A stretch of 58,241 bases of DNA from Elusimicrobiota bacterium (GTDB lineage: Bacteria; Elusimicrobiota; Elusimicrobia; UBA1565; JACRDR01). The position numbers were made by a program, and so were the translations under genes. Position 1 is the stretch's first letter. Every line of letters begins with the position of its first letter. The notes under the pieces were generated by a model. It saw nothing but the letters and a program-made list of their open reading frames with translations, was not told the origin of the DNA and did no database searches. The stretch lies in the NCBI GenBank assembly GCA_026388115.1, contig JAPLKK010000119.1, positions 1 through 58,241 of the forward strand, in the 5' to 3' direction. This document shows positions 1,532 to 27,136 of this stretch, in pieces.

Positions 1532-2569
1532 TTACCCGCGCCGAGCCTCTTTGTCGAAATCGGCCTGCGCCATGATCCTGACGAGCTCGTGGAAGGTCAC
1601 CCTCGGCTTCCAGCCGAGCTTCCTCCTGGCCTTCGAGTAGTCACCCCGAAGGATGTCCACTTCGGCGGGACGAAAATACTGCGGATCGATCTCGATGATC
1701 GCCTTGTTCGTCTTGCGGTCGACGCCCTTTTCCTTGGCGCCCTTGCCTTTCCAGCCCAGCTCGATGCCGAGCTGCCCGGCCGCCTCCTCGACGAACTCGC
1801 GCACCGAATGCGCCTCGTTGGTGGCGATCACATAGTCGTCCGGCTCTTTCTGCTGGAGCATGAGCCACATCGCCTCGACGTAATCCTTCGCGTAGCCCCA
1901 GTCGCGCTTCGCCTCGAGGTTGCCGAGGAATACTTTGTCCTGCTTGCCGAGCTTGATGCGGGCCAGGCCGCGAGTGATCTTTCGGGTGACGAAGGTCTCT
2001 CCGCGGCGTTCGCTCTCATGATTGAAGAGGATGCCGTTGCAGGCGAACATGCCGTAGCTCTCGCGATAGTTCCTTGTGATCCAATAGGCGAAGACTTTGG
2101 CGACACCATAGGGCGAGCGCGGATGAAGCGGCGACGTCTCGTTGAGCGGCAGCTTGCGCGCCTTCCCGAATATCTCGCTCGAGGATGCCTCGTAAAACCG
2201 CGTCTTCAATCGGGTCTCGCGGATCGTGTCGAGGATCCTAAGGGCGCCCACTCCCGTGACATCCGCGGTGTACTCCGGAAGGTCGAAGCTCACCCGCACG
2301 TGGCTTTGTGCCGCCAGATGGTATATCTCGTCGGGCTCCAGCTTTTCGAGAAGCCGGCTGATGCTGCTGCTGTCGCAAAGATCCCCCATATGCACGAACA
2401 GCCGCACGCCGCGCAGGTGCCGGTCTTGGAAGATGTGGTCGATGCGGCCGGTGTTGAAGCTGCTGGAGCGCCGGACGACGCCGTGCACCTCGTACCCTTT
2501 CCCCAACAGGAACTCCGCAAGATAGGAGCCGTCCTGCCCGGTGATGCCGGTGATGAGTGCCTTCTTCAT
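1532..2569 (-). CDS. gmd: GDP-mannose 4,6-dehydratase
   Basis: [126 protein letters not shown]. Confidence 0.95.
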
Positions 2570-3822
2570 GCCGAGTGAACCTCCAAGGCCGGAAGAGGGA
2601 ACACCAGCCTGCCGCCGCTTCGAAGATACGCGCGCTCGCGCTCGATGATGCCGTCCTTGAAATGCCAGGGCAGGACCAGGAAATAATCGGGCTTCATGGC
2701 ACGAGCCTCCCGTTCGCTGATGATCGGGATCCCCGAGCCCGGCGTGACGCGGCCGAATTTATCCGGGTTGATCTCCGCGATGAAAGGCACATCCGCCCTC
2801 GTAAGGCCGCAGAACTGGAGGACCACGTTTCCCTTGGTGGAAGCGCCGTAACCGAACACCCTCTTGCCGCTTCGGTTGACCTGTCGGACGAACTTCCGCA
2901 ATGCGTCCCGGCTGGCCGACACCCGACGCCTGAAATCGCGGAACGCCCGGAGCGTCGAAAGCCCCCTTCGATCCTCTCTCCGAAGCAAGTCATCGATCAT
3001 GGCGGACTCTTCAACGCGGCGCGAGTCCGATCTCGCCAATGTAACAGAAAAACTCCCCCCGTTGACGGGGTTGATCTCCACGTCAATGATCTTCAAGCCG
3101 AGCCGGTCCGTCATCCACTTGATCTGCCTGAGCCTGTAGTATTCCAGGTGCTCGTGGCAGATCGTGTCGTAGGCGTTCATGTCGAGCATGGACGGCAGAT
3201 AGCTCTGCTCGAGCACCCAGATTCCGTCATCGGCCAGGACCTCCCGGACCTGGCGCATGAAGTCCATGGGCGACTCGAGGTCGTAGAACATGGCGATGGA
3301 CGTGATGGCCTTGGCCTTCTTGCGCCCGAACGCTCGAGTGATGAGCCCGGCCGAGAAGAATCCCGGAAGAAGCCGAACGCCGGGCGGATAGAACCGCTTG
3401 AACTTCCCGCCCACCGGATCGACGCCGGCCAAGCGCAGCCCTCTCTTCGGATAGGCCCCCAGGAGCGTGCCGTCATTGCTCCCGATGTCCACGACGAGGT
3501 CGCCCCGGACGAGCGGAACCGCCCGCAAGATCCTATCCACCTTTGACCGAAGGTGCTCCACCATCGATCTATTGAGGCCCGAGCGGTATCCGTAGTTCTT
3601 GCCGTAAAGCTCCTTCTTGCCCACCGAGTGGCGCAGCTGGACCAGGCCGCAAGCATCCCGGCGGGACGATGCGCGGCACAGGACCAACTCCAAGGGCGCA
3701 ACGCTTACCCGCCCGCCCTTGGCCGGGAAGACGCCCGTCAGCGCCTGCCGGCCAAGGTCCATGACGGGATCCAGCATCGGGTTCCCGCAAATCCGGCAGG
3801 CCTTTATTTCGGTAAAGGACAT
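2566..3822 (-). CDS. Class I SAM-dependent methyltransferase, sugar C-methyltransferase type (N-terminal Cys-rich domain)
   Basis: [60 protein letters not shown]; overlaps gmd start by 4 nt. Confidence 0.85.
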
Positions 3823-4562
3823 GGGGCGATCCGCAGACTTTTCGCGCCAAAGGCCGTCCGCGCCGACAGCTCGAACAGAAACCCCAGGCTCCGCGTCGCG
3901 TCCGCCCAAGTCATCTTCGAGCGGCCGCAGCCGCGGGCCGGCAGATCGATGGGGATCTGTCGAACAGAAAACCCGTTCAGCTTCAGCAGGTGCAAGCTCT
4001 CGAAAAAGAACGAATAGGTGCGCGATCGGGCCAGCTCGAACACTTCACGCGGTATCCGATCGAGCCGGTAAAGACGGTAAGCCCCCGTCGCGTCTTCTTC
4101 CAGGCCCAGGAATCCTCGCGTTAGGAAATGCGCCGCATTCGTCAGCGCTTTCCGAAAAAGGTTCCAATCCCCAAGGCTCTCGCCTCGCAGGTAACGCGAC
4201 CCGACCACGACGTCGCAGTCGCGGGCCGCCGCGAGGAAGTCGGGGATGTATTTGGGCGAATGCGTGAAATCGGCGTCCATCGTGACGAGCGCGCTATAGC
4301 CGTGGTCGTACGCCCAGCGGATGCCCTCCCGGTGCGCGCTGCCGATGCCGAGCTTACCGGAACGGTGCAGCGCCCGGACATTAGGGTGCTCGCGCGAAAG
4401 GCGGTCAAGGGTCTCTCCCGTGCCGTCCGGCGAGCAGTCGTCCATGAAGACGATGTCGGCGTCGAGCTTCAAGGCCCGCAATTCGCGGCAGAGATTCTCG
4501 ACGTTCTCCTGCTCGTTGTAGGTGGGGATGAAGATGGCGATCTTCGCCGGGGAGGGAGTCAC
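3804..4562 (-). CDS. GT2 glycosyltransferase, polyprenol-phosphate mannosyltransferase-like
   Basis: IAIFIPTYNEQENVENLCREL, IVFMDDCSPDGTGETLDRL, ALVTMDADFTHSPKYIPDFL, VVGSRYLRGES; GTG start overlapping the upstream stop. Confidence 0.88.
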   Translation of the reverse strand: MTPSPAKIAIFIPTYNEQENVENLCRELRALKLDADIVFMDDCSPDGTGETLDRLSREHPNVRALHRSGKLGIGSAHREGIRWAYDHGYSALVTMDADFTHSPKYIPDFLAAARDCDVVVGSRYLRGESLGDWNLFRKALTNAAHFLTRGFLGLEEDATGAYRLYRLDRIPREVFELARSRTYSFFFESLHLLKLNGFSVRQIPIDLPARGCGRSKMTWADATRSLGFLFELSARTAFGAKSLRIAPCPLPK

Positions 4563-6401
4563 GGCCGCTTTAGGCTCAGTTCCTTCACTTTTTCCGCGAT
4601 GCGCGCAGCCGCCTGCCCGTCGCCGCGGAAGAACAGGAGCTCGAGGGCGCGGCGTCGCAGCTCCATCGTCGGTTGAAAGAGCGCGGGGTCCTTGGCGAAC
4701 CGCAGCAGGGCCTCGCGCAGGGAGGCCGGGGAGGCGAAGCGCGGGATCTCGACGGCCTCGGCGAGCCCTGAGCCGAAATAGCCCGCCGGCAGCCATTGCC
4801 ACACCGGCTTTCCCGCGATGAGCGCCTCCTCGCCGACGGTCGAGTAGCTCACGAGGATGAGGTCCGCGCGCGCCAGGTCCTCGTCGAGGGTCCCGCCGGT
4901 GACCCCGATCTCCTTCGCGAGCCTCCGGAACCGCGGCCGCTCCTCGATGCGCGTGAACGGGTAGTTCCTGCATTCGAGCCGCACGCCGTCCGCGCCGCGA
5001 GCCGCGATGCAGGCCGCCTCGATCATCTCGATCTCGATGTCGCCCTCCAGGCTCAGCGCCAGCAGGACGGTGAGCGGGGAGCGGCGCGGCGGCAGGGCGG
5101 CGGCCGGCTCGCAGATATGATCGTAGCGCGCCGAGCCCGTCAGAAAAACGTTCTCCGGACGATGCCCGGACTCCTCGTATACGGCCTTCCCAGCGGCGCC
5201 GGCGGCAAAAAGGAAGCTCGGCTTCGGAGCGGCACAGCCATCAGGCTTGCCGTGAAACTCATGCTCAGGCTCCAGACGATGAAAGGTCTTCTCCCAACAG
5301 ACGCTGGCGTGCTGCATGGCGGCCGATATCGCTCCCGCACGGCGCGCGCCTTCCGCGAAAGCCCTGCCGTAGGACCAATGCTCGAAGAAGCTCACCGCTA
5401 CTTTCGAACCGGCGGCTTTCAACGCACGCTCTGCCGCCAGGGTCACCAGTTGGAAGTGGGGCAGCGACGTGTCCAAGAATCCCCTCAGCAGCCGGGCCGC
5501 GAAGAACGCGCTGTAGTCGATGCCCTCCTCGGATAGCGCGGCGGCCAAGGCCGGCGACCGCCGCGCGCGGAGATAGACGCGAAACGGACTGAAATCGCGG
5601 GTCGCGGCCCATACATCCGAGAACGAAAGCCAGGACTGGAGGAGGGCGGCATGGGGCGCCGGATCGAGAGTCTTCGCCACTTCCGACGCGCTGCGGCCGG
5701 AGCGAGCCGGATCGAAATCCGGGTCAAGCCACAAGAGCCAGCCGGAGGTGACGCCAAGCCGGCTCAGCTCGTCCGGCAGGGCCTTGAAATAGCGATCGAA
5801 CAGGGCGCCCTTTTCGGTCCGCCGCACGCTCCAATCCCAGAAGCCGAAGATCGCGACCTTGCCGATGGCCTGCGTCGCAACGAGGCGCGCGGCGAGCGCC
5901 CACGACGGTCGCCCATGCCGAAGGCGGCCGGGCGCCGGCGCGTGAGCGGACCGAGAAGCCCTGCGCGAGCACCGCCTCCACCTCGGCCGGCGCGCCCCAG
6001 AGGAACAATTCCAGCGCGCCCGAGCGCGCAGCCGCGGCGCGCACCGTCTCGACGGTCAACAGCCAATCGTAGGCGCGGTCCCCGCTCCCGTCGGGATCCT
6101 TGAAGGAGACGGGATGAAACCACCAGCGGCTCGCTTCGCCCGGCCGCGCCAGCGCCTGGCGCAGCGTGCGCCCGTCACTCAGCCGCGCGAGGCCGATGTT
6201 CGCGACAAGCCGCAGATACCGGGAGCGCGCTGCCTCGCGCACGTCCTGGACCACCTCGCGGGCGCGGATCAGGCGGCAGGACTTCTCGAGCGACTCTTCC
6301 TCCGGAGGCGATAGGAAGCTCAGGACCGGCTGGTCGGCCGCCGGCTTCTCACCCGCCGGCCGCCACAAGACCCAAAGGCGCCCAGCTGCCGCGTCGCTCA
6401 T
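4559..6401 (-). CDS. Surface carbohydrate biosynthesis protein resembling the Leptospira LIC13510-type family; split by a frameshift near 5935-5950
   Basis: N-terminal part in ORF 5724..6401 (SRWWFHPVSFKDPDGSGDRAYDWLLTVETV...VLAQGFSV), C-terminal part in ORF 4559..5827 (FEHWSYGRAFAEGARRAG..QHASVCWEKTF..VFLTGSARYD..LVSYSTVGEEALIAGKPVW). Confidence 0.65.
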
Positions 6402-7357
6402 TGCCGCTGGAACGTTAGGAACTCTTTCGCCGGACGCGCCTCGTCCAACCCGCGGATGGCGGCGCGGCCCATGGCCAGCACCGCTTCTTCGGTCGAGCCA
6501 GCGATATGCGGCGTGCCGAGGAAACTAGGCAGCGAGAGCAGTTCGGGGTCGGCAGGTGGCTCCTGCGCGAACACGTCGAAAGCCGCGGCGCCGAGCTTGC
6601 CTTCCTTGAGCGCCGTTTTGAGCGCGCCCTCATCCACAACGCCCCCGCGCGCGGTGTTCACCAGGATCGCCCCCGGCCGCATCAAGGCCAGCCGGCCGGC
6701 GTCGAACAGCCCGCGCGTCGCCGCGTTGAACGGCAGGTGCAGGGAAACGACTTCCGCCTGCCGAAGCAGGTCGTCAAGCGGCATGGGTTCGATCTTCAGG
6801 GCTCGGCACGCCTGCTCGTCGATCCGGACATCGTAACCCAGGATCCGGCAGCCGAAGGGCGCGAGCAGAGCCGCCAGGTCCTTTCCAACGTTGCCCAGCC
6901 CGACGAGGCCGACGACGCGCCCGCTCAAGGTCCGTCCCTTCCGCTGCTTCCAGGCGCCGGACCTGAGGTCGGCGTTGGCGGCCCCAAGCTGACGCAAAGC
7001 GGCCATCATCAGCAGCAACGCCAGCTCCGAGACCGAACGCCGGTTCGTCCCGCCCGCCCAGCCCAGGAGCACGCCGCGCCGCTCCATCGCCTCCAGGTCG
7101 AGCATGTCGAGGCCCACGCCCACCTTGCCGATCACTTTGAGCTCAGGGAGCTTCGATAGCACCTCGTCGTCGATGCGCTCGAGAGCGGTGATCGCCTTCG
7201 AGTGGCCCTTGAGGAACGCGACGAGGGAATCGCCCGCGAGGGTCTTCCCTTCATCATTGAACGTGACGTTCGGATAGCGCCCCAGGAGCTCCGAGCGCAG
7301 GATCGGGTGCTTCGAGAAGGAGCGGGACGTCACGGCCACACGGGTGGTGTCGTTCAC
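6398..7357 (-). CDS. D-2-hydroxyacid dehydrogenase (3-phosphoglycerate dehydrogenase-like)
   Basis: GLVGLGNVGKDLAALL, NTARGGVVDEGAL, DVFAQEPP, TPHIAGST; GTG start overlaps the preceding gene by 4 nt. Confidence 0.88.
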   Translation of the reverse strand: MNDTTRVAVTSRSFSKHPILRSELLGRYPNVTFNDEGKTLAGDSLVAFLKGHSKAITALERIDDEVLSKLPELKVIGKVGVGLDMLDLEAMERRGVLLGWAGGTNRRSVSELALLLMMAALRQLGAANADLRSGAWKQRKGRTLSGRVVGLVGLGNVGKDLAALLAPFGCRILGYDVRIDEQACRALKIEPMPLDDLLRQAEVVSLHLPFNAATRGLFDAGRLALMRPGAILVNTARGGVVDEGALKTALKEGKLGAAAFDVFAQEPPADPELLSLPSFLGTPHIAGSTEEAVLAMGRAAIRGLDEARPAKEFLTFQRQ

Positions 7358-8382
7358 TTCGAGCGGACCTCCTCGAGATAGTCTTTGCAAGCCGCCCGGA
7401 AGCCCTCGTCGGGCGCCACCAGGACCTTGGCGGGGCGGCCGTCATCGCCGGGAAGGATCACTCCCATGCGGTCGGCGGTATTCTTCTTGTCCTTGCCCAT
7501 CGCCCGGAAGAAGTCCTCCGGAGGCACGCGCTGGCTCTCAAAGCCGCGATAGTTCTGCCGGAGCACCGGGTGCATGCGCCGGAAGTGACTGTCGGGCGCG
7601 CGCCCCAGGCGGGCCGCCACGTAGTTGGCCATGTCGGCCCCCATCGTCACCGCGATGCCGTGCGGCACCGCGAAGTCCGTCGCGGCCTCAATGGCGTGAC
7701 CGAAGCTGTGACCGTAATTCAGGACCTGCCGCGGGCCGCGGTCGAACTCGTCGAGCTCGATCAGGCGCTTCTTGATCTCCAGCGAGCGCCGGACATAGCC
7801 CAGAAGGAGGGGGCGGTCGGTCAGGAGCCTCGGATAGTCCTTGGCGATGCGGTCGAAGGAGTCCGGGCCCTCGATCGCGTGGACCTTCAGCATCTCGCCG
7901 AGGCCGCTGCGGACATCCTTCTCGTCGAGCGTGTCCAGGAAGCGCGCGGCCACGAGGACCGTCTTGGCGGGCGTGAAGGTGCCGAGGATGTTCTTCGCGT
8001 CGCCGGCGTTGATCGAGCTCTTGGACCCGATGCACGAGTCGGCCTGCGCCAGAAGGGTCGTCGGAATGAAATGCCACTCGAGACCGCGCAAGAGCGTCGC
8101 GGCCAGGAAGCAGGTGATGTCCTGGATGATGCCGCCGCCGATGGCGACGAGGACGTCCCCGCGGCGCACCCCTTTCGCGATGAGCTTCTCCACGTAGCCC
8201 GGGAACGCCTCAAGCGACTTGTTGGCTTCGGTCGCATCGATGAGGAGCGCGGTATCGGCCGCCAGGAGGCCGGCAAGCTCCTTCCCGTATAGCCGCGCCA
8301 CCCGCGCGTCCAACAGGGCCCACGACGGTGCGGTCCAGTCGTCGCGGTCGGCGAGCCAGCACGCCAGGGCTGAATCCGCCAT
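7354..8382 (-). CDS. 3-dehydroquinate synthase-like sugar phosphate cyclase
   Basis: GGGIIQDITCFLAATLLRGLEWHFIPTTLLAQADSCIGSKSSIN, GLGEMLKVH, LNYGHSFGHAIE, PHGIAVTMG; putative metal ligands E/H/H retained; N-terminus looks shortened. Confidence 0.8.
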   Translation of the reverse strand: MADSALACWLADRDDWTAPSWALLDARVARLYGKELAGLLAADTALLIDATEANKSLEAFPGYVEKLIAKGVRRGDVLVAIGGGIIQDITCFLAATLLRGLEWHFIPTTLLAQADSCIGSKSSINAGDAKNILGTFTPAKTVLVAARFLDTLDEKDVRSGLGEMLKVHAIEGPDSFDRIAKDYPRLLTDRPLLLGYVRRSLEIKKRLIELDEFDRGPRQVLNYGHSFGHAIEAATDFAVPHGIAVTMGADMANYVAARLGRAPDSHFRRMHPVLRQNYRGFESQRVPPEDFFRAMGKDKKNTADRMGVILPGDDGRPAKVLVAPDEGFRAACKDYLEEVRSK

Positions 8383-9073
8383 CGATGACCACCTGCTGTC
8401 CGCTCAGATACGTGTTCTCGGGGCCGGCCAGCCAGGCGACGAGCGCCGCGATCTCCGCGGGCTTGCCCAGGCGGCGCGCGGGGATGCGCTTGGCCATCTC
8501 CGCCATGCCGCGCGGGCCCAGCACCCGGCGCGTGAGGTCGGTGTCGATGAAGCCCGGCGCCACGCAGTTGGCCAACACGCCGTCGGCGGCGGCTTCGGCG
8601 GCGAGCGCCGCGGTCATGCCGTCCAAGCCGAACTTGCTCGCGCTGTAAGCGCCGCGCAGTTCCTTGGAGATCACGCCGAAGATAGAGGTGACGTTCACGA
8701 TGCGGCCCCAGCCCTTCTTGCGCATGCGCGGCAAGACGGCGCGGCAAAGCAGGAACGCCGCCCGCAGGTTCACGTCTTGGATGCGGTCGAAATCCTCTGG
8801 CGCGATGCCGGCGAAAGGCGCGAGCTTGTTGATGCCCGCGTTGTTGACGAGGATGTCGATCCCGAGTCCGGCGGCCTCCTCGGCAAAGGCCTGCGTCGCG
8901 GCGCGATCGGAAAAGTCGACGGCGCGGAACTCGAGGCCCCGGGGCGCCCGCGCCGGGCGCGTGCCCGTGATGATGACGCGGGCCCCGTCGGCCTTGAGGC
9001 GCGCGGCGATCGCCGCGCCGATGCCGCGCGTGCCGCCGGTCACCAGAGCGGTGCGTCCCTTAAGAGGCTTCAT
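8210..9073 (-). CDS. Short-chain dehydrogenase/reductase (FabG-like)
   Basis: TALVTGGTRGIGAAIAARL, LVNNAGINK, NVTSIFG, YSASKFGLDGMTAALA, GQQVVIDGGFS; the ORF continues ~55 aa past the usual SDR end. Confidence 0.85.
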   Translation of the reverse strand: MKPLKGRTALVTGGTRGIGAAIAARLKADGARVIITGTRPARAPRGLEFRAVDFSDRAATQAFAEEAAGLGIDILVNNAGINKLAPFAGIAPEDFDRIQDVNLRAAFLLCRAVLPRMRKKGWGRIVNVTSIFGVISKELRGAYSASKFGLDGMTAALAAEAAADGVLANCVAPGFIDTDLTRRVLGPRGMAEMAKRIPARRLGKPAEIAALVAWLAGPENTYLSGQQVVIDGGFSPGVLARRPRRLDRTVVGPVGRAGGAAIREGACRPPGGRYRAPHRCDRSQQVA

Positions 9074-10152
9074 TGAGCCTTTCTCCCTCCCCCCTTGCGG
9101 GGGAGGGCCGGGGTGGGGGGTAGCCCATCGGAGAGGTTGAACTTCGCTTTCCAGCGAGGATCGGCACAGTAGATGCGGTAGATGAGTTCCATGGTCTTCA
9201 AGGCCTCCGCGGAGGTTCCGTTCACGACCGGCTTGTCGTGCGCCACGGCGTCCGCGAACTCGAAGACCTCGTCGCGCCAGGAATTATCCTGATCGAAGCG
9301 CGTCGTCAGCTCCTGAGGTTCGCCCGCGTCGTCTTCGGTGGCGCGGGCGACCGTGATCGTCTCGGCGCCGTAGCTCTTCGAGCCGGAAAGGATGCCGTCG
9401 AGCTGGATCGCGCCTTTCTCGAGCGTGATATCCATGCGGAAGCGATGGCGCCACGAGGTCGCTGAGGAGTGGAGCAGGGCCACGACGCCGGAGGCGGTGC
9501 GCATCAGAGCGTAGGCGTTGTCCTCGACATCATGGTTCCAGAAGGCGTTCGAGACGTGGCTATGGACCTCGACGAACTCGCCGGCAAAAAGGCGCATCAG
9601 GTCGACCATATGGATGCCTTGGTCGAGCAGGATGCCGCCGCCTGCGTACCGCCGCTCCGCCCGCCAGCCGCCCGCGTAATTGAGGATGCGGCTCTTGCCG
9701 TAGACGCCGCTCAGGTTCAGCACGCGGCCGAGTTCCCCGGAGCGGACGAGCCGCAGGGCCTCGCGCACCGAATCGTGATAGCGGTGATTGAAGCCGTACA
9801 TGAGCTTCACGCCCGGCCTGGCGCCCTCCGCCTCGATGACGCGCGCCACGTCCGCCAAGTCCCGGCCCGGCGGCTTCTCGCAGAAGACATGCAGGCCCTT
9901 CTCGATCCCCGCGATCGTCGCCTCGGGCGCGAGGTGATTGGGAAGGCAGACGAAGAGCGCGTCGAGCTCGGCCTTGGCCACGAGGTCGCGGAAATCGGCG
10001 AAATACGGCACGCCGTCGGGGAGCGCCCCCGGTTTGCCGAAAGACACGTCGCTGACAGCGGCCGTGGCCAGCGCCGGGTGCTCGTCGATATATTGCCGGC
10101 GGCGCTTGCCGACCACTCCGTAGCCCGCGATGCCGACGCGCAGCTTCTTCAC
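9070..10152 (-). CDS. Gfo/Idh/MocA family oxidoreductase
   Basis: LRVGIAGYGVVGKRRRQYIDEHP, DALFVCLPNHLAPEATIAGIEKGLHVFCEKPPGRDLADV; C-terminus LPPTPALPRKGGG is encoded by repeat copy 2. Confidence 0.9.
   Translation of the reverse strand: MKKLRVGIAGYGVVGKRRRQYIDEHPALATAAVSDVSFGKPGALPDGVPYFADFRDLVAKAELDALFVCLPNHLAPEATIAGIEKGLHVFCEKPPGRDLADVARVIEAEGARPGVKLMYGFNHRYHDSVREALRLVRSGELGRVLNLSGVYGKSRILNYAGGWRAERRYAGGGILLDQGIHMVDLMRLFAGEFVEVHSHVSNAFWNHDVEDNAYALMRTASGVVALLHSSATSWRHRFRMDITLEKGAIQLDGILSGSKSYGAETITVARATEDDAGEPQELTTRFDQDNSWRDEVFEFADAVAHDKPVVNGTSAEALKTMELIYRIYCADPRWKAKFNLSDGLPPTPALPRKGGGRKAQ
9082..9120 (+). repeat. Dispersed GC-rich hairpin/G-run element, copy 2
   Basis: tctccctccccccttgcgggggagggccggggtgggggg; lies in the 3' end of the Gfo/Idh gene and just upstream of the SDR start. 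Confidence 0.85.
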
Positions 10153-10940
10153 CGCCGCGCCTCCGAGACCGCGTAGGACTTCATCAGCTTGTCGGCCTTC
10201 ATCGCCCGCGCCGCGGCTTTGAGGTCCTGCGGCGTGTCCACCGACAGGCCGGTGTTCTTGACCGCGATCATCCTCACTCGATCGCCGTGCTCAAGGCAGC
10301 GCATCAAGTCCACGGACTCTATCTTCTCCAAAGGCGTCGCCGGCAGGGTGGTGAAGCGCAGGAGATAGTCCCTCCGGAACGGAATGATCGGGTACTGCCG
10401 GAACATGGGAACGCTCTTGGCGCCCTTCTTGCGCGAGGGGATCGGCTCACGCGAGAAATACAGCGCATTCCCCTTCAGGTCGACGACCACCTTGACCTGA
10501 TTGGGATCCTCGAAGGCCGCGTCGCCGGACAAGGGCGCCATGAGGCAGGCGAGCTGAAGGTTCGGATCGTCGAGCACCGCCTGGACCGCGAGGTCGACGG
10601 CTTGCGGGTCCACCATGGGTTCGTCGCCCTGCACCATCGCGACGATGTCCGTGCGGCGCCCGGTCTCCGCCTCGATCTTGAGAACGGCCTCGGCCGTGCG
10701 CTCGGTGCAGCGCGCGTGCGTGTCGGCGGTCATGACAGCCTTGCCGCCGAGAGAGCGGACGTAGTCGAAGATCTCGGCGTCGCAGGTGGCGACCCACGTC
10801 TCAGCCACCGTCTTGGCCAGCCGCGTCCGGAAATACACATGGCCGATCATGGGCATGCCGTGGAGCTTGGCCATGGGCTTGCCGGGAAAGCGAGTCGATG
10901 CCATGCGCGCCGGGATGATGGCGACGACGCGCTCAGCCAT
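10149..10940 (-). CDS. KdsB-like cytidylyltransferase (3-deoxy-manno-octulosonate cytidylyltransferase family)
   Basis: VVAIIPARMASTRFPGKPMAKLHGMPMIGHVYFRT, VQGDEPMVDPQAVDLAV, PNQVKVVVDLKGNALYFSREPIPS, GLSVDTPQDLK. Confidence 0.88.
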   Translation of the reverse strand: MAERVVAIIPARMASTRFPGKPMAKLHGMPMIGHVYFRTRLAKTVAETWVATCDAEIFDYVRSLGGKAVMTADTHARCTERTAEAVLKIEAETGRRTDIVAMVQGDEPMVDPQAVDLAVQAVLDDPNLQLACLMAPLSGDAAFEDPNQVKVVVDLKGNALYFSREPIPSRKKGAKSVPMFRQYPIIPFRRDYLLRFTTLPATPLEKIESVDLMRCLEHGDRVRMIAVKNTGLSVDTPQDLKAAARAMKADKLMKSYAVSEARR

Positions 10941-11705
10941 CTATCGAGGAGCAGCGGAGACCGCCGAAAGTGCCTGGCGCGCAGCCACGTCGATCATCCG
11001 CGTGTCGAGACTGTAGGCGACGAAACGGTAGCCTTCGCGAAGGCGGCGCTTGAGCATGGCGGGGTCCGGCTCCACGACGTGCAGCCCCGCGGGCTTGCCA
11101 AGCTTGTCGGCCGCACGCTTGACCTGACGCATCGCGGCTTGCACGCGCGCGTCCCGGGTCTTTCCCGGGAGACCCAACGAGGCCGAGAGGTCGTAGGGCC
11201 CAATGAAGCAGCCGTCGATGCCGTCGACGGCAAGGATCGCCTCGACATTGGCGACGCCGTCGACGTGCTCGATCATCGCGATGACGACGGCGTCGCTCTT
11301 AAGCCACTTCCGGTATGCCTCGAAGCCCGCCCCGTAACCTTGCGCGCGCGCCAAGGCGACGCCGCGACGGCCGTCTGGCGGGTAGCGGACGGCGGCCACG
11401 GCGCGCTCAGCGTCAGCGGCGCTGTTGACCATCGGAACGATGATTCCGCGCGCCCCCGCGTCCATGACGCGCTTGATCTGGTCGGCATCGTTCGAGGTCA
11501 GCCGGACCAGCGGCGCAACGCCGCAGAGGTCCACGACGCGGATGAGCTCCTCCGCCTCGCGGATCGTGATGACCGAATGCTCGAGGTCGATGCCGATCCA
11601 GGAGAACCCCGCGCGGGCCAGAATCTCGGCGATGGAAGGATGCGCCAGCGTAATCCAGGACCCGACCACAGGCTTGCCGGAGGCCAGGCGCTTCTTGAGT
11701 GTCAT
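10941..11705 (-). CDS. HpcH/HpaI-type pyruvate aldolase
   Basis: GSWITLAHPSIAEILARAGFSWIGIDLEHSV, DAGARGIIVPMVNSAADAERAVAAVRYPPDGRRGVALARAQGYG, GCFIGPYDLSASLG. Confidence 0.92.
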   Translation of the reverse strand: MTLKKRLASGKPVVGSWITLAHPSIAEILARAGFSWIGIDLEHSVITIREAEELIRVVDLCGVAPLVRLTSNDADQIKRVMDAGARGIIVPMVNSAADAERAVAAVRYPPDGRRGVALARAQGYGAGFEAYRKWLKSDAVVIAMIEHVDGVANVEAILAVDGIDGCFIGPYDLSASLGLPGKTRDARVQAAMRQVKRAADKLGKPAGLHVVEPDPAMLKRRLREGYRFVAYSLDTRMIDVAARQALSAVSAAPR

Positions 11706-19944: not shown

Positions 19945-21129
19945 ATGAGCGCGTCGCCGCTCTCATCGCCGCCTAAGAAGACCCCGGCCGTACCGATCCT
20001 GCGCATCCCGTTCGACGCGAAGGATCGCGCCTTCCTCGCGGAGGGTTTGGCCAAGATCCTGGACTCGGGCGCCCTCGTCATGGGCGAGAACACGAAGGCC
20101 TTCGAGCGGGAGTTCGCCGCGCTCTGCGGCGTGCCCTACGCGGTAGCGACCTCCAACTGCACGACAGCGCTCGAGATCATCCTGCGCGCCGTCGGCGTCG
20201 AGGGCGGCAGCGTGATCGTCCCGACCAACACGTTCATCGCGACCGCGTTCGCCGCGGTGCACGCGGGCGCCAAGGTCGTGTTCGCCGACTCGGACCCGAC
20301 GACTCTCTGCCTCGACCCCAAGGATGTCGAGCGCCGCCTCAGGCCCGACACCCGGGCGGTCATCATCGTCCACATCGGCGGCATCATCACGCCCGCGATC
20401 GAGGACCTGAAGAGGCTCTGCGACGCGAAGGGCATCGCCTTGGTCGAGGACTGCGCTCACGCGCACGGCTCGACCTACAAGGGCACGGCGGCGGGCGCTT
20501 GGGGATGGGCCGGAGCGTTCTCCTTCTTCCCGACCAAGCCCCTGGTCAGCGGCGAGGGCGGCATCATCACGACGCGCGACCAGGCGGTCTACGAGAAGGC
20601 CCTCATGCTGCGCAACCACGGCAAGAACCCCAAACTCGGGAACCGGATCACGGAGCTAGGGCACAACTGGCGCATGAGCGAGATCACGGCGCTCTTGGCG
20701 CTGCAGCAGACGCGCAAGGCTAAGGAGCTCTTCGCGGACCGCAAGGCGACCGCGGCCTACTACGACCGCGAACTCTCCGGCCTCGCCGGAGCGAAGCCCC
20801 TCGCCATGCCCCAGGGCATGGACTCGACGTACTACAAGTACGTCATGGTCCTCGAGCCGGGGCTGCCGCGCGACGCTCTCAAGAAGCTCATGAAGGAGCG
20901 CTTCCAGGTCTCGCTGACCGGCGAGGTCTACGACGTGCCGTGCCACAAGGAGCCTGTCTGGCAGCAGCATCCCCGCGCGGCGATCAACGCGAGCGACTCC
21001 TTCCCCGGAGCCGACGAGATCGCGGCCAGGCATTTCTGCCTGCCGCTCTATCCCGGACTGACCGACGCGGAGCGCGCGCACGTGGTGAGCTCGCTCAAGG
21101 CCGCCCTCAAGGAGGTCGCGCGCGCATGA
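19945..21129 (+). CDS. DegT/DnrJ/EryC1 family PLP-dependent aminotransferase
   Basis: YAVATSNCTTALEIILRAVGV, VIVPTNTFIATAFAAVHAGAKVVFADSDPTTLCLD, ALVEDCAHAHGSTYKG, FSFFPTKPLVSGEGGIITTRD. Confidence 0.92.
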   Translation: MSASPLSSPPKKTPAVPILRIPFDAKDRAFLAEGLAKILDSGALVMGENTKAFEREFAALCGVPYAVATSNCTTALEIILRAVGVEGGSVIVPTNTFIATAFAAVHAGAKVVFADSDPTTLCLDPKDVERRLRPDTRAVIIVHIGGIITPAIEDLKRLCDAKGIALVEDCAHAHGSTYKGTAAGAWGWAGAFSFFPTKPLVSGEGGIITTRDQAVYEKALMLRNHGKNPKLGNRITELGHNWRMSEITALLALQQTRKAKELFADRKATAAYYDRELSGLAGAKPLAMPQGMDSTYYKYVMVLEPGLPRDALKKLMKERFQVSLTGEVYDVPCHKEPVWQQHPRAAINASDSFPGADEIAARHFCLPLYPGLTDAERAHVVSSLKAALKEVARA

Positions 21130-21809
21130 ACATCCTCGCTCTTGCTGCGCACGGCGACGACGAACTGCTCGGTCCGGGCGGGACGCTGATCCGTCACGCT
21201 CGGGCAGGCGACGCCGTGCACGTCGCCATCTGCGTGGGCCGCCCGAACCTCAAGATGTACTCGGAGAAAAGGTACGGTCCCCAGGTCCTCGACCGCCGCA
21301 AGAAGCAGGCGGAGAAAGTCGGCAGGTTTCTGCGCTTCGCGTCGGTGCGCTGCCTCGACCTGCAGGACGAGATGCTCGAGCAGGACCTCAACGCGACGGT
21401 CACCGCCGTCGAGAAGGTGGTGAACGAGGTAAAGCCCGATGTGGTCTACCTCCATCACGGCGGCGACGTCAACCAGGACCACCGCGGCGTGTTCAAGGCG
21501 GCCCTGGTCTCGGTGCGGGGCTACCGCAAGCCGAGGATCCGCCGCGTCCTCGCTTTCGAAACCCTCTCCACGACCGAGCAAGCCCCGGCCGCGCCCAGTT
21601 GGGCGTTCCTGCCGGACTACTACGTGGACATCTCCAAGTTCCTGGACCTCAAGCTCAAGGCACTGCGCATCTACAGCGACGAGCTGGCCCCGTTCCCGCA
21701 TCCGCGCTCGGCCGAGGGACTGACCGCGCTGGCGCGCCTGCGCGGCGCCACCGCCGGCTTCCGCGCGGCGGAGGCCTTCGCGCTCGTCCGCGAGTGCGTC
21801 GGGGATTAG
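21126..21809 (+). CDS. PIG-L/LmbE family deacetylase
   Basis: MNILALAAHGDDELLGPGGTLIRHARAGDAVHVAICVG, DVVYLHHGGDVNQDHRGVFKAAL; ATG overlaps upstream stop. Confidence 0.92.
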   Translation: MNILALAAHGDDELLGPGGTLIRHARAGDAVHVAICVGRPNLKMYSEKRYGPQVLDRRKKQAEKVGRFLRFASVRCLDLQDEMLEQDLNATVTAVEKVVNEVKPDVVYLHHGGDVNQDHRGVFKAALVSVRGYRKPRIRRVLAFETLSTTEQAPAAPSWAFLPDYYVDISKFLDLKLKALRIYSDELAPFPHPRSAEGLTALARLRGATAGFRAAEAFALVRECVGD

Positions 21810-21810
21810 C

Positions 21811-22869
21811 GTGCTCTTCTTCAACAAGCTGGACAACCCCGCCGACTTCTGGAAGCACCTGCGCTTTCACTTCAACCGCGGGCGCGGCCACCAACTGCGC
21901 TTCCTCTGGAACCGGGTGCGCTGGCACCTTTACCCGGCGCTGGGGCTGGCCGGCCACTATCCCGACCATGTCGACATCGAGCTCTCCGCCGCCTGCAATA
22001 TGCGCTGCCCCATGTGCTACACGACGACCGCGCGATTCAAGAGGGAAGTCCCGCACGTGCTGTTCGACTTCGAACTCTACAAGCGCGTCATCGACGAACT
22101 GGCGGCCAACGGCGTGTACTCCATCCGCCTGAGCTGGCGCGGCGAGCCCACGGTCCACCCGCGGTTCATGGACTGCGTGCGCTACGCGCACGAGAAGGGC
22201 ATCCGGGAGATCGATTCCCTCACCAATTGCCTCAAGCTCACGCCCGAGATGTTCGCGGAGCTGGTGGACATGCAGGTGGCGTGGCTCACCATCTCCTTCG
22301 ACGGCACCGGCGAGACCTACGAGAAGATCCGCGCCCCCGCCAAGTTCGACGAGGCCGTGGCCAAGATACGCCGCTTCCACGAGATCAAGAAGGAGAAGGG
22401 CTCGGTCAAGCCGGTGGTGCGCCTGCAAGGCGTCTGGCCCGCCATCGCCGAAGACCCGGAGAGGTACTTCTCGACCTTCGAGAGCATCGTCGACGAGATC
22501 AGCGTCAACTCCTTGCTCGACTACCTGCGAAAGGACGAGACGTTCCAGTATGTGCCGGACTTCGTCTGCCCCGTGCCCTTCCAACGCCTGGTCCTCGGCT
22601 CCGACGGCCGCGCCTTCATGTGCATCAACGACGAGATGGGCCAGGTCTGCGTCGGCGACGCGCACAAGGAAACCATCCACGACATCTGGAACGGCTCCAA
22701 GATGGCTGAGGCGCGGCGCGCCCAGCTCGAGAAGCGCGGGGTCAAGACCTACGAGCCCTGCAAGGTCTGCTACCTCGCGCGCAAGACAGTGCAGAAGCCG
22801 TACAAGGTCGGCAACCGGACGATCATGCTCGAGGAGCTCGAAGGCCGGACCATGGTCGTTGGAAAATGA
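21811..22869 (+). CDS. Radical SAM protein with SPASM-like C-terminus
   Basis: ELSAACNMRCPMCYTTTARF; C-terminal VCPVPFQRLVLGSDGRAFMCINDEMGQVCVGD..YEPCKVCYL. Confidence 0.92.
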   Translation: MLFFNKLDNPADFWKHLRFHFNRGRGHQLRFLWNRVRWHLYPALGLAGHYPDHVDIELSAACNMRCPMCYTTTARFKREVPHVLFDFELYKRVIDELAANGVYSIRLSWRGEPTVHPRFMDCVRYAHEKGIREIDSLTNCLKLTPEMFAELVDMQVAWLTISFDGTGETYEKIRAPAKFDEAVAKIRRFHEIKKEKGSVKPVVRLQGVWPAIAEDPERYFSTFESIVDEISVNSLLDYLRKDETFQYVPDFVCPVPFQRLVLGSDGRAFMCINDEMGQVCVGDAHKETIHDIWNGSKMAEARRAQLEKRGVKTYEPCKVCYLARKTVQKPYKVGNRTIMLEELEGRTMVVGK

Positions 22870-23588
22870 GAACCGTCGCCATCCATCAACCCGAGTGCTT
22901 CCCTTGGCTCGGCTTCCTCGACAAGGCCCGGCAGTCGGACGTCTTCATCATTTTGGATAGTGTCCAGTACGAGAAGAACTATTTCCAGAACCGCAACAAG
23001 ATCCGCACCGCCGACGGCTGGACCTGGCTGACGATCCCGGTAGAGACCTCCGGCAAGCTCGAGCAGACCATCGCCCAAGCCCGGATCTCCGATGCAGCAT
23101 TGCCGCGCTGGCGCGAGAAGCACCTGGCGGCCTGGCGCCAGAACTACGGCAAGACGGCGGACGCCGAGGCATGTCTGGGATTCCTCGAGGCGCACTACGC
23201 CAAGCGCCACCAGCTGCTCGCGGACTTCAACACGGACGTGATCCGCTGGCTCTTCGAGCGTTTCGGCATCAAGGCCGAGCTGCGGCGCTCATCCCAGATG
23301 GCGGCCAAGGGCCGCTCCAGCGCGCTATTGGCTTCCTTGTGCAAGGAAGCGGGCGCCGAGGCCTATCTCTCCGGCGTCTCGGGCAAGGACTACCTGGATG
23401 AAGCGGAGTTCTCCCAGCTCGGCCTGCAAGTCCGCTACCAGGAGTTCCATCACCCGATCTACAAGCAAAGCCGCGAGCCGTTCATTTCCTGCCTCTCGTC
23501 TTTCGACCTGCTGTTCAACTACGGCGCCGGGGCGCCAACGCTTCTCTTCGATCCGGCCACGCCAAGGCTAACCGAGGTCTTCACATGA
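22866..23588 (+). CDS. WbqC family protein
   Basis: MRTVAIHQPECFPWLGFLDKARQSDVFIILDSVQYEKNYFQNRNKIRTADGWTWLTIPV. Confidence 0.9.
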   Translation: MRTVAIHQPECFPWLGFLDKARQSDVFIILDSVQYEKNYFQNRNKIRTADGWTWLTIPVETSGKLEQTIAQARISDAALPRWREKHLAAWRQNYGKTADAEACLGFLEAHYAKRHQLLADFNTDVIRWLFERFGIKAELRRSSQMAAKGRSSALLASLCKEAGAEAYLSGVSGKDYLDEAEFSQLGLQVRYQEFHHPIYKQSREPFISCLSSFDLLFNYGAGAPTLLFDPATPRLTEVFT

Positions 23589-24619
23589 GCGCTCCCATCG
23601 CGGTCGGCGGCCGGATCATCGGCCAGGACCGGCCCGTTTTCGTCATCGCCGAGCTGGGCTACAGTTTCGTCGACCTGGACGAGGCACTGCGGGCAGTGGA
23701 CGCCGTCGCCGATTCCGGCGCCGACGCGGTCAAGCTCCAGACCTTCCGCGCCGAGACCGTGGTCGCCAAGGGCTTCGATTTCCCCCCCGAGGCCGGCGGC
23801 GTCGACCAGTTCGCGGAGTTCAAGCGCTACCAGATCTCCGAGGAGACGCACCGCGCTATCTTCGAGCGGGCTAAGAAGCGGGGCATCGCCGCCTTCTCGA
23901 GCCCGAGCCACCCTGACGACCTCGCCTTGCTCGAGCGGCTGGGCGTGGAGCTGCACAAGATCGGCTCCGACGACCTGACCAACATCCCCCTCATCCGGAA
24001 GGTCGCGGGCACCGGCAAGCCCGTGATCCTTTCCACCGGCATGGGCACCCTGGAGGAAGTGGGAGCCGCGGTGAAGGCGGTGCGCGGGACCGGCAACGAC
24101 AAGCTCGTCCTGCTCCAGTGCACCTCGAACTACCCCATCCGAGACCTTTCCGTGGTGAACCTCCGGGTCATCCCGGACTATCAGAAACGCTTCAACGTGC
24201 TCGTAGGGCTATCCGACCACACGACCACCCTCTCGGCGGCCCCGGCCGCCGTGGCCCTGGGCGCCATCGCCATCGAGCGCCATTTTGCGCTCAGCAAGGA
24301 CAACGGCACGCCGGACGCGCCGTTCTCGTCCGACCCCGCGGAGCTCGCGCAGCTCGTGCGGCTCGTGCGCGAGACCGAGAAGATGCTCGGCGACGGCGCC
24401 AAGAAGCCCACGCCGACAGAGGCCCAGATGCGCCAGTACACCCGCAAGAGCGCCATCGCCTGCCGGAATCTACCGGCGGGCCACACGCTCAGTGCCGGCG
24501 ACTTCATCATCAAGCGCCCTGCGCTCGGCGTGGCGCCGGCCGAGGCGGAGAAACTCATCGGGCGCGTCTTGAAGAGGCCCGTGCGCGAGGACCAACCCAT
24601 CCCATGGGACGCGGTCTAG
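23585..24619 (+). CDS. N-acetylneuraminate synthase (NeuB) family protein with C-terminal SAF domain
   Basis: VFVIAELGYSFVDLDEAL..AVKLQTF, SSPSHPDDLALLERLGVELHKIGSDDLTNIPLI, ILSTGMGTLEEV, LLQCTSNYPI, LVGLSDHTTTL, C-terminal CRNLPAGHTLSAGDFIIKRPALGVAP. Confidence 0.9.
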   Translation: MSAPIAVGGRIIGQDRPVFVIAELGYSFVDLDEALRAVDAVADSGADAVKLQTFRAETVVAKGFDFPPEAGGVDQFAEFKRYQISEETHRAIFERAKKRGIAAFSSPSHPDDLALLERLGVELHKIGSDDLTNIPLIRKVAGTGKPVILSTGMGTLEEVGAAVKAVRGTGNDKLVLLQCTSNYPIRDLSVVNLRVIPDYQKRFNVLVGLSDHTTTLSAAPAAVALGAIAIERHFALSKDNGTPDAPFSSDPAELAQLVRLVRETEKMLGDGAKKPTPTEAQMRQYTRKSAIACRNLPAGHTLSAGDFIIKRPALGVAPAEAEKLIGRVLKRPVREDQPIPWDAV

Positions 24620-25593
24620 TCGCATTGCTGGCCGAGTGCTCGCCGCGGATAGGTTCCGGCCACGTGATCGAGACTCTGAACCTTATCCCGCGCCTGAAAG
24701 GGCTGCGCTGGCGGGCCTTCGTCGGCCACAGGACCCCCCCGGCATTGCTGCGGCGGTTCCGCGGGCGCGCCGAGCGGATCGCCGGCTTCTCCGCGCGCGC
24801 GCTGGCCCGACTGGGCGCGAGGCTCAAATGCCAGGGCTACTCCGCGGCCGTCATAAACGTCTTGCGCGCAGACGCGAACCAGGTCAGGGCTTTTCAGCAG
24901 ACGGGCATCAAGACCGCATGTCTGACGGCCTCCGGCCGACCGCCGGCGTGCGCTGACGCGGCGCTGGCCTACGACGCCGCGCTGTGGAACAAGCTGCCCG
25001 GCGGGCCGAGGCATCAATGTCTCGCCCCTGCCTACGCGCGCTTGGCCCGCCGCGAGCGCCGGCACGCTGGAGGGCTGCGCGACGTCATGATCATCATGGG
25101 CGGCACCGATACGAGCGGGACCACGCTCAACGTGCTCGCCTCGCTTGCCTCTTGGGCTCCGCGCGTGCGCAAGCACGTAGTAGCGGGCCCGAACTTCATC
25201 CATCGCGCGAAGCTCAAGCGCCTCCTTTCGCGCCTGGACGGCTCCTTCATCCTTCATGAGAGCCCGTCGCACCTTCCCGCGCTCATGCGCCGCGTTGACG
25301 CCGCTCTAACCCTGGGGAGCGATACGGCCCTCGAGCTCGCCTGCGTCGGCACGCCGACTCTGCTTTTCCATGAAGCACCGCACGAAGCCCGCGTCGCGCG
25401 CCTCTTCGCAAAGAAAGGCTGCGGACTCTATATCGGCTCGCGACGCGCCGCCACACCCAAGAGGCTCGCCGGGGCGCTCGCCAAGCTCCAGGACCCGCGC
25501 GCGCGGGACCGCATGGCTCGCGCCGGCCGAAGGCTCGTGGACGGCCGCGGCGCCGAGCGCCTGGCGGCCCTTATCCGGAGGCTCGCCGCATGA
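24604..25593 (+). CDS. PseG-like glycosyltransferase/nucleotide-sugar hydrolase
   Basis: AECSPRIGSGHVIETLNLI, DVMIIMGGTDTSGTTLNVLASL, ESPSHLPALMRRVDAALTLGSDTALELACVGTPTLLF. Confidence 0.75.
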   Translation: MGRGLVALLAECSPRIGSGHVIETLNLIPRLKGLRWRAFVGHRTPPALLRRFRGRAERIAGFSARALARLGARLKCQGYSAAVINVLRADANQVRAFQQTGIKTACLTASGRPPACADAALAYDAALWNKLPGGPRHQCLAPAYARLARRERRHAGGLRDVMIIMGGTDTSGTTLNVLASLASWAPRVRKHVVAGPNFIHRAKLKRLLSRLDGSFILHESPSHLPALMRRVDAALTLGSDTALELACVGTPTLLFHEAPHEARVARLFAKKGCGLYIGSRRAATPKRLAGALAKLQDPRARDRMARAGRRLVDGRGAERLAALIRRLAA

Positions 25594-26240
25594 AACCATC
25601 GGTGCTGGCCCTGATCCCGGCGCGAGGCGGCTCCAAGAGCGTCCCGCGCAAGAACATCAAGCCCATCGCGGGCAAGCCCCTCATCGCCTGGACGATCGAA
25701 CAGGCCGAGGCCGCCGAGACCATCTCGCGCGTCGTCGTGTCCACCGAGGACGCCGAGATCGCGAGGATTGCCCGCCGCTATGGGGCCGAGGTTCTCGACC
25801 GCCCGGCGGCTCTCGCGAAGGACGACACCGACACGCTCGACGTGATGCAGCACGCGGTCCGGGAGCTTAGGCCGGACGTCCTCGTCCTGCTCCAGTGCAC
25901 CTCGCCCATCCGCCGGCCCGGCCTCATCGACAGGTGCGTGAAACGTTTCTTGGCCGAAAAGGCGGACTCGCTGGCCACCGTATTCCCGGACCACAGCTAC
26001 GAGTACGGCGTAGAGATGCCGCGCCGCCAGGACATCAAGCCGCGCCTCATCGACACCGGCAACATCTACATCATGCGCTGCGACCTGCTGCGCAAAGGCG
26101 ACCGTTATGGCAGGAAGATCGTGCGCGTGGAGACCAGCCGCGAGGAAGCCGCCGAGATCGACGAGCCCTTCGACTTCTGGCTGGCGGAAAAGATCCTACT
26201 GGAGCGCCCCCCCGAAACATGGCAAAACCCGACTTCCTGA
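25590..26240 (+). CDS. Acylneuraminate cytidylyltransferase (NeuA/PseF) family protein
   Basis: LALIPARGGSKSVPRKNIKPIAGKPLIAWTIEQA, VVVSTEDAEIARIARRYGAEVLDRPAALAKDDTDTLDVM, LLQCTSPIRRP. Confidence 0.92.
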   Translation: MKPSVLALIPARGGSKSVPRKNIKPIAGKPLIAWTIEQAEAAETISRVVVSTEDAEIARIARRYGAEVLDRPAALAKDDTDTLDVMQHAVRELRPDVLVLLQCTSPIRRPGLIDRCVKRFLAEKADSLATVFPDHSYEYGVEMPRRQDIKPRLIDTGNIYIMRCDLLRKGDRYGRKIVRVETSREEAAEIDEPFDFWLAEKILLERPPETWQNPTS

Positions 26241-27136
26241 AGGAGCATCTCAACGTCTGGTGGCTCAGGCCCGAGCAGGCCCTATGGGACGCCGTCGCCT
26301 CCGATGTCATCGCCAAAGAGCCCGTCCGCTCCCCATCGCTGGACCTCGGCTGCGGCAACGGCATCTACAGCTTCATCCAGGCCGGCGGCTCCTTCGGCCC
26401 GGGCTACGACTGGTTCTCGAACGCGACGGCTTCCGGGTTCCGCAAGAACAAGGACAGCTATGATGTCCCGCTCGCCGTCGATCCGGCCGACCACATCGCG
26501 CGCAAGCCGCGGATGCGCTTCGATTTCGCCTTCGACCACAAGCAGAACCTCCTAGACCAGGCCGCGCGGCTCGGCCTGTACGAAAAGGCGCTTTGCGGCG
26601 ACGCGCAAAGCCGCTTGCCGTTCGCCGATGGCAGCCTCGCGACGGTCTTCTCGAACATCCTGTATTGGCTGCGCGACCCCGCGGCGCGCTTCGCGGAAAT
26701 CGGCCGCGTGCTGCGGCCCGGCGGCCGAGCCCTGTTGTGCCTTCAAGACCCGCGGTTCAAGGCGATCTGCGAGAGTTACCAGTGGCATCGGAGGCGCTCG
26801 GAGCTTTTGCGCCTGCTCAACCGCGGGCGCGACGTCTGCAACCTCTGGACCGCATCCCTCCCCGAGATCAAGGCGTTCGGCCGCCGCGCGGGCCTGCGGC
26901 TCGTCGGCCACGAGGGATACCTTTCCGTGCCGACCCTGCGCTTCTGGGATGTGGGCCTGCGCCCCATCTTCCCGCCGCTGCTGACGATGACGCAGCGCCT
27001 GAGCCCGGCCGCGCGCGCCGAGGTCAAGGCGCTATGGATCGAGACCGCGCTCCCGGTGCTCGAGGAGATGAAGCGCGTCGACGCAAAGGACCCGCGGCCC
27101 AGGGGATATCACTTCGTCGTGCTCGAGAGGCGCTAG
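26219..27136 (+). CDS. Class I SAM-dependent methyltransferase
   Basis: SLDLGCGNGIYSFIQAGG, DGSLATVFSNILYWLRDPAARFAEIGRVLRPGGRALL. Confidence 0.85.
   Translation: MAKPDFLKEHLNVWWLRPEQALWDAVASDVIAKEPVRSPSLDLGCGNGIYSFIQAGGSFGPGYDWFSNATASGFRKNKDSYDVPLAVDPADHIARKPRMRFDFAFDHKQNLLDQAARLGLYEKALCGDAQSRLPFADGSLATVFSNILYWLRDPAARFAEIGRVLRPGGRALLCLQDPRFKAICESYQWHRRRSELLRLLNRGRDVCNLWTASLPEIKAFGRRAGLRLVGHEGYLSVPTLRFWDVGLRPIFPPLLTMTQRLSPAARAEVKALWIETALPVLEEMKRVDAKDPRPRGYHFVVLERR

Follow-up and report, generated by a model that had tools for sequence, protein, structure and literature searches.

The window studied here is the whole of a contig of 58,241 nucleotides (JAPLKK010000119.1, contig C83) from the draft genome of an Elusimicrobiota bacterium, which comprises 4.1 Mb in 286 contigs. 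Its minus strand carries an operon in which a pyruvate aldolase and a relative of KdsB, the synthetase of cytidine monophosphate (CMP)-activated 3-deoxy-D-manno-octulosonate (Kdo), are followed by oxidoreductases and by a cyclase related to AroB, the 3-dehydroquinate (DHQ) synthase. The operon is characterised by its gene content and linkage, the non-housekeeping paralogy of its enzymes, the presence of their catalytic residues, a cyclase pocket of the carboxylate type and an altered sugar pocket in the KdsB-like enzyme. It is proposed, with chances that are taken to be about even, that it constitutes an accessory and horizontally mobile route to a non-Kdo sugar acid activated by CMP, which would be destined for a surface glycan and whose synthesis would involve carbocyclisation.

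Organisation of the operon

The genes are listed in Table 1, and neighbouring ones abut or overlap by around 4-36 nt. An earlier note on this DNA had described seven consecutive genes on the minus strand. Their positions are borne out, and the families assigned to the first six are supported by Pfam and NCBIfam models, but the seventh gene is split over two frames. The glycosyltransferase, methyltransferase and gmd genes placed after the operon are likewise recognised by Pfam and TIGR01472.

Table 1. Genes of the operon and of the region downstream of it in the window
Feature	Position	Strand	Family or remark
HpcH/HpaI-type pyruvate aldolase, 254 aa	10941..11705	minus	opens the operon
KdsB-like CTP-dependent cytidylyltransferase, 263 aa	10149..10940	minus	PF02348
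Gfo/Idh/MocA oxidoreductase, 360 aa	9070..10152	minus	PF22725/PF01408
Short-chain dehydrogenase/reductase (SDR), domain residues 1-235	~8360..9073	minus	PF13561/PF00106
AroB-related sugar phosphate cyclase, 342 aa	7354..8382	minus	TIGR04425
D-2-hydroxyacid dehydrogenase, like phosphoglycerate dehydrogenase (PGDH)/PdxB, 330 aa	6398..7390	minus	PF02826/PF00389
LIC13510-like region, probably GT-B glycosyltransferase-like	4559..6401	minus	two frames, 5724-6401 and 4559-5827
GT2 glycosyltransferase, downstream	3804..4570 (start approximate)	minus	PF00535
C-methyltransferase	2566..3822	minus	Pfam Methyltransf_13/23/14
gmd, GDP-mannose 4,6-dehydratase	1532..2569	minus	TIGR01472, 553 bits (cut-off 415)

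The homologues of the LIC13510-like gene in loci L034 and L060 (L060 and L035 are the same contig) are single frames of 615-621 aa, and the window gene looks split by a frameshift. The junction between the SDR and cyclase genes looks eroded in comparison with L060: the SDR frame continues to position 8210, the expected stop being absent, and the N-terminus of the cyclase is around 18 residues shorter than in its nearest relatives, L060 among them. In a draft genome, these defects may reflect either assembly errors or real decay.

The name LIC13510, given to the seventh gene in the earlier note, stands only as a remote likeness. The corresponding model, TIGR04326 (cut-off 250), matches neither half of the window gene, and the link is provided by the intact L034 homologue, whose match is weak (79 bits) and below the cut-off. 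The predicted structure of the LIC-like protein is poor (mean predicted local distance difference test, pLDDT, of 45) and its resemblance to GT-B proteins is weak evidence.

The KdsB-like cytidylyltransferase

The cytidylyltransferase passes the broad cut-off of the PRK13368 subfamily (301 bits) and falls narrowly below that of the kdsB equivalog TIGR00466 (153.3 bits against 155.2). A housekeeping kdsB, with kdsA close by, is found on another contig (G000:C122). A tree of 29 cytidylyltransferases places the window protein and 12 proteins from related clusters in a clade (support 99/95) apart from housekeeping KdsB, and two KdsB-like proteins encoded beside an HOA-like aldolase form a separate pair (100/99).

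The catalytic residues K, Q, D, D, E and R are kept in all 15 KdsB-like proteins, including the lysine of PGKP and the aspartates of QGDEP and VDTP. A published account covers this lysine and the pair of metal aspartates (PMC3149649). Twelve housekeeping KdsB proteins show little or no variation in the motifs on the Kdo side of the enzyme, SGT and HxGIYGY (the latter in the C-terminal, sugar-binding part), and these motifs are mostly replaced in the KdsB-like proteins. At these positions the window enzyme reads RCT and QYPIIPF, and the housekeeping KdsB of the same genome retains HIGIYGF. The window enzyme therefore has the fold family and the catalytic residues of the KdsB/KpsU CMP-Kdo synthetases in common, but it differs from them in the replaced Kdo-side motif, in forming its own clade and in having no kdsA partner. 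The replaced residues agree with the suggestion in the earlier note that the operon need not serve ordinary Kdo synthesis, a function which is rejected on the motif test.

Beside the cyclase of some relatives, another cytidylyltransferase family replaces or accompanies the KdsB-like gene (L066, 13186-14358; L068, 5457-6593; L064, 2456-3598). The L066 protein of this family has a C-terminal cupin domain.

The aldolase and its partner

The aldolase scores 151-187 bits against the HpaI, GarL and RhmA equivalogs, whose cut-offs are 369-441 bits. Alignment to HpaI-type enzymes of the PDB shows that the His, Arg, Glu and Asp of class II pyruvate aldolases are kept. It thus has the catalytic residues in common with the HpcH/HpaI pyruvate aldolases, but it lies under every equivalog cut-off and is paired with a cytidylyltransferase. 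The gap between these two genes is 0-36 nt in the window and in six of the seven relatives that were fetched, and about 1 kb in the seventh; this adjacency agrees with the earlier guess that the two enzymes work together.

In loci L064 and L045 the place of HpcH beside the KdsB-like gene is taken by an HOA-like aldolase, an HMGL-like protein unrelated to HpcH and closest to 4-hydroxy-2-oxovalerate aldolase. As one pyruvate aldolase has been exchanged for another beside the same partner, there is good evidence that the pair would make and activate a 2-keto acid.

The AroB-related cyclase

The cyclase scores 434 bits against TIGR04425, over the cut-off of 400, and 242 bits against the AroB equivalog TIGR01357, below the cut-off of 305. 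By score it belongs to TIGR04425, an NCBIfam hypothetical equivalog (AroB-related putative sugar phosphate phospholyase, cyclizing), which models a family of proteins whose reaction has yet to be characterised and says nothing of a pathway or gene set. When 60 cyclases were placed in a tree, the window protein grouped with its relatives (types A and B) in a clade (Shimodaira-Hasegawa approximate likelihood ratio 97) apart from the AroB group. The latter includes DOIS and aminoDHQS, both long-branched, and EEVS and DDGS are also separate from the window clade. The housekeeping aroB lies at G000:C249. The possibility, raised earlier as a check, that the KdsB-like and cyclase genes are simply the housekeeping kdsB and aroB of this genome is ruled out by the trees and by the separate copies of aroB, kdsB and kdsA on other contigs.

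The AlphaFold model of the cyclase (pLDDT 86) has DHQ synthases (DHQS) as its top PDB matches. Sixteen active-site positions were compared in 24 type A cyclases, with the numbering of Aspergillus DHQS verified against PDB 1dqs. Residues of ValA (4p53) and DDGS (5tpr) were taken from the PDB rows, and the DOIS and DHQS sequences are identical to 2d2x and 1dqs. Type A cyclases retain R130, D146, K152, N162 and the metal ligands E194, H271 and H287, and K250, R264, N268 and H275 are kept in 24 of 24. The only change common to all of them is E260D, which the aminoDHQS comparator has too. In contrast, the enzymes using sedoheptulose 7-phosphate or glucose 6-phosphate have lost parts of the DHQS pocket: ValA, an EEVS, carries K250M, N268D and H275P, DDGS additionally R264D, and DOIS R264G and N268E. 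A cyclase of these substrates (EEVS, DDGS, DOIS) is rejected on the strength of the kept K, R, N and H residues.

The positions of K250 and R264 are those which we take to hold the carboxylate of 3-deoxy-D-arabino-heptulosonate 7-phosphate (DAHP). Since this set is kept, we infer that the substrate would be a carboxylated 2-ulosonate phosphate, probably not DAHP itself. The window cyclase shares with AroB the fold and 15 of the 16 active-site positions, but is set apart by its separate clade, the replacement of E260 by D, the score under the equivalog cut-off and the surface-glycan neighbours. Other members of the superfamily, EboD as well as EEVS, DDGS and DOIS, have been recruited outside the shikimate pathway (PMC5133447, PMC4426668), and with EboD there is a precedent in which a new branch of cyclases was taken into a secondary pathway (PMC5133447).

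Oxidoreductases and a GmhA-like isomerase

The nearest solved relatives of the Gfo/Idh protein are myo-inositol 2-dehydrogenase and glucose-fructose oxidoreductase, and the D-2-hydroxyacid dehydrogenase scores 226 bits against the PGDH model, below its cut-off. In the relatives, the cyclase groups with the SDR, the Gfo protein and the dehydrogenase, to which a GmhA-like isomerase of the sugar isomerase (SIS) family is often added. The isomerase was not seen as part of the cyclase core in the earlier note because the window has no gene for it.

In the close relative L034, the GmhA-like isomerase gene directly follows the LIC-like gene. The nearest SIS copy in the genome (L192, G000:C96:8000-21000) belongs to what we take to be a GDP-heptose-type operon, with a nucleoside triphosphate transferase, a HAD phosphatase, a GHMP kinase and the SIS protein. 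The SIS proteins of the clusters are up to 42% identical to this copy. Together with the isomerase gene of L034, this likeness points to heptose or sedoheptulose 7-phosphate as the putative start of the pathway.

Linkage and distribution

The contigs of GTDB genomes were scanned with the cyclase alignment, which gave 80 loci. The 16 other loci in the tree clade of the window cyclase, chosen blind to their neighbours, were compared with 35 aroB loci of similar length from the same scan. Gfo is linked to the cyclase in 16 of the 16 clade loci and in none of the controls, any cytidylyltransferase in 14 (controls, none), the D-2-hydroxyacid dehydrogenase in 12 (controls, one) and a GmhA-like SIS protein in seven (controls, none), these clade loci being mutually related, so that Fisher values overstate their independence. 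An SDR of the same family lies next to the cyclase in all 16. The neighbourhood check therefore finds the genes linked in relatives, and chance is excluded as the source of the operon because numerous unrelated genomes carry the gene set too.

The hosts of the clade are Elusimicrobia, Opitutaceae (Verrucomicrobia), Coxiellaceae and other Gammaproteobacteria, SAR86, Rhodospirillales, Hyphomicrobiaceae, Nitrospiraceae and Bacteriovoracia, and more distant carriers are found in Flavobacteriales, Melioribacteraceae, Pelagibacteraceae and Hydrogenovibrio. Related gene sets are distributed patchily over at least six phyla. Full or almost full sets are met repeatedly; one example (HpcH, KdsB-like, Gfo, SIS, SDR and AroB-like proteins, plus the dehydrogenase) is a genome of the Hyphomicrobiales, an order in which strong TIGR04425 matches occur in 3 of 348 sampled genomes. 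Such patchiness is as expected for an accessory, transferred trait. Apart from aroB-like genes, a search of plasmids gave a single cluster, of the aminoDHQS type. This cluster (L139, plasmid pSALBX2 of Streptomyces sp. CL7) lies near a polyketide synthase, an arylamine N-acetyltransferase, a DAHP synthase and a shikimate dehydrogenase, as in biosynthesis of the 3-amino-5-hydroxybenzoate (AHBA) type.

Some genes accompany the core in single lineages, such as those for a fumarylacetoacetate hydrolase-family protein (L061, 4418-5206) and a putative cyclase of PF04199 (L070, 10971-11627).

Proposed pathway and alternatives

The substrates, the product, the order of steps and the link between the two modules of the following scheme are inferred. 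Module 1 would consist of the AroB-like cyclase, the SDR, the Gfo/Idh protein and the D-2-hydroxyacid dehydrogenase, joined in roughly half of the relatives by the GmhA-like isomerase. Sedoheptulose 7-phosphate would be isomerised by the SIS protein, C1 would be oxidised by Gfo or the SDR and C2 by the PdxB/PGDH-like dehydrogenase, giving a 2-ulosonate 7-phosphate. The AroB-like enzyme would then eliminate phosphate and close the ring, in the manner of DHQ synthase acting on DAHP, and the oxidoreductases would fix the final oxidation pattern. In module 2, HpcH would condense an aldehyde with pyruvate to a 2-keto-3-deoxy acid, which the KdsB-like enzyme would couple to CMP for final transfer by the glycosyltransferases encoded downstream. 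The earlier note had suggested a noncanonical ulosonic acid or a cyclised derivative of it; the non-Kdo character and the HpcH/KdsB-like pair support this in part, while the product and its chemistry are read from sequence and stay conjectural.

Several observations weigh against this scheme. HpcH or an HOA-like aldolase lies near the cyclase in 8 of 23 loci and is not near it in the other 15, and HpcH was not found in four whole genomes searched; module 2 may therefore do without HpcH in some cases. R264 is also kept in ValA, and the carboxylate argument consequently rests on the whole residue set. Because a DHQ-type carbocycle lacks an anomeric centre, it would donate glycosyl groups poorly as a CMP ester, and the link between the modules is chemically unsolved. 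Finally, the frameshifted glycosyltransferase-like gene and the shortened cyclase mean that the window copy may not be fully functional.

A different order of steps, similar to that of the shikimate pathway, would have the aldolase make a DAHP stereoisomer from pyruvate and a tetrose 4-phosphate and the cyclase turn it into a DHQ isomer, which the SDR or Gfo would reduce before the KdsB-like enzyme put CMP on the tertiary alpha-hydroxy acid. It would suit a cyclase pocket that is wholly DHQS-like except for the change shared with the aminoDHQS comparator, the constant presence of the adjoining SDR (16/16) and the recurrence of unrelated C3-condensing enzymes (HpcH-like, HOA-like and NeuB-like) near this cyclase family. 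However, the aldolase gene has its partner in the cytidylyltransferase rather than in the cyclase and is missing from many loci, and to our knowledge there is no glycosyl donor with CMP at a non-anomeric carbon; this order is considered doubtful. It is quite unlikely that the operon makes two sugars of the same glycan, HpcH and the KdsB-like enzyme providing one CMP-ulosonic acid and the AroB-like core another residue. The aldolase-KdsB-like pair of L084 (Hydrogenovibrio sp. SC-1) is indeed 6 kb from the cyclase core, and in L067 HpcH is elsewhere on the contig, beside another cytidylyltransferase, but the linkage between cytidylyltransferase and cyclase (14/16) is above what two unrelated pathways would be expected to give.

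That the operon is an ordinary route to Kdo or to a sialic-type acid, its additional genes being mis-annotated, is highly improbable and largely refuted. The score of the KdsB-like protein over the broad PRK13368 cut-off speaks for it; against it stand the kdsB and kdsA copies elsewhere, the replaced Kdo-side residues, the lack of NeuB in the operon and the patchiness of the gene set within one order. As for the window copy itself, the frameshift, the lost SDR stop, the shortened cyclase and the lack of an SIS gene in the cluster would agree with decay to an inactive remnant of a cluster conserved elsewhere. This is unlikely, as the remaining frames are intact with their catalytic residues and errors in a draft assembly would look alike. 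The preferred reading remains that of an accessory route to a CMP-activated, non-Kdo sugar acid.

A second cluster type and other genes of the window

The type B cyclases, more distant members of the family, are found in 38 loci (among L038-L051 and L071-L101) and keep the same DHQS-type pocket. An SDR is present in 28 of these loci, a NeuB-like protein in nine and an HOA-like aldolase in six. From reading the sequences, 30 presumably carry a thiamine diphosphate (ThDP)-dependent acetolactate-synthase-like protein, 16 an FGGY-type kinase and 13 an HpcH-like protein. These loci often adjoin genes that we take, again from reading the sequences, to be of the CDP-3,6-dideoxyhexose (rfb) type. They are perhaps routes to branched or carbocyclic surface sugars.

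The NeuB-type condensing enzyme, which uses phosphoenolpyruvate (PEP), is absent from the operon, and the only NeuB of the window (23585-24616) belongs to another gene group. This group (19945-27136) encodes a DegT aminotransferase, a PIG-L deacetylase, a radical SAM/SPASM protein, WbqC and the NeuB, with a weak KdsB-family match at 25602-25964, and resembles a route to a nonulosonic acid to which unusual enzymes have been added. Two radical SAM/SPASM proteins (21811-22869 and 31189-32304) form an unusual pairing in the polysaccharide region. An open frame at 34176-35555, with a weak CBS-domain match ahead of an NAD-dependent epimerase domain, may represent a fusion or two adjacent genes.

Implications

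The cyclase family is already catalogued as a hypothetical equivalog, and each of the enzyme classes is known. Among open-licence papers, no pathway description was found for TIGR04425, LIC13510, the gene combination, cyclitol or carbocyclic O-antigens or the Leptospira rfb loci. Bradyrhizobium has an O-antigen made of bradyrhizose, a sugar that includes a carbocycle and for which the genes of synthesis have yet to be identified (PMC4743980). Bradyrhizose, with its cluster of 11 genes in strain ORS285, is an appealing if conjectural candidate for the product.

The proposal gives TIGR04425, carried in databases as putative only, a candidate pathway and partner enzymes, and the second cluster type hints at wider unexplored pathways for carbocycle-forming surface sugars. 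The gene sets are present in named records other than metagenome-assembled genomes (MAGs), those of Paramagnetospirillum caucaseum SO-1 and Hydrogenovibrio sp. SC-1. The predicted acidic surface sugars could escape composition analyses tuned to Kdo and sialic acids. A tentative and bolder possibility, somewhat improbable at present, is that a shikimate-type carbocyclase would lead to a carbocyclic, CMP-activated sugar acid in surface glycans, which would represent a new class of monosaccharide, spread horizontally over at least six phyla.

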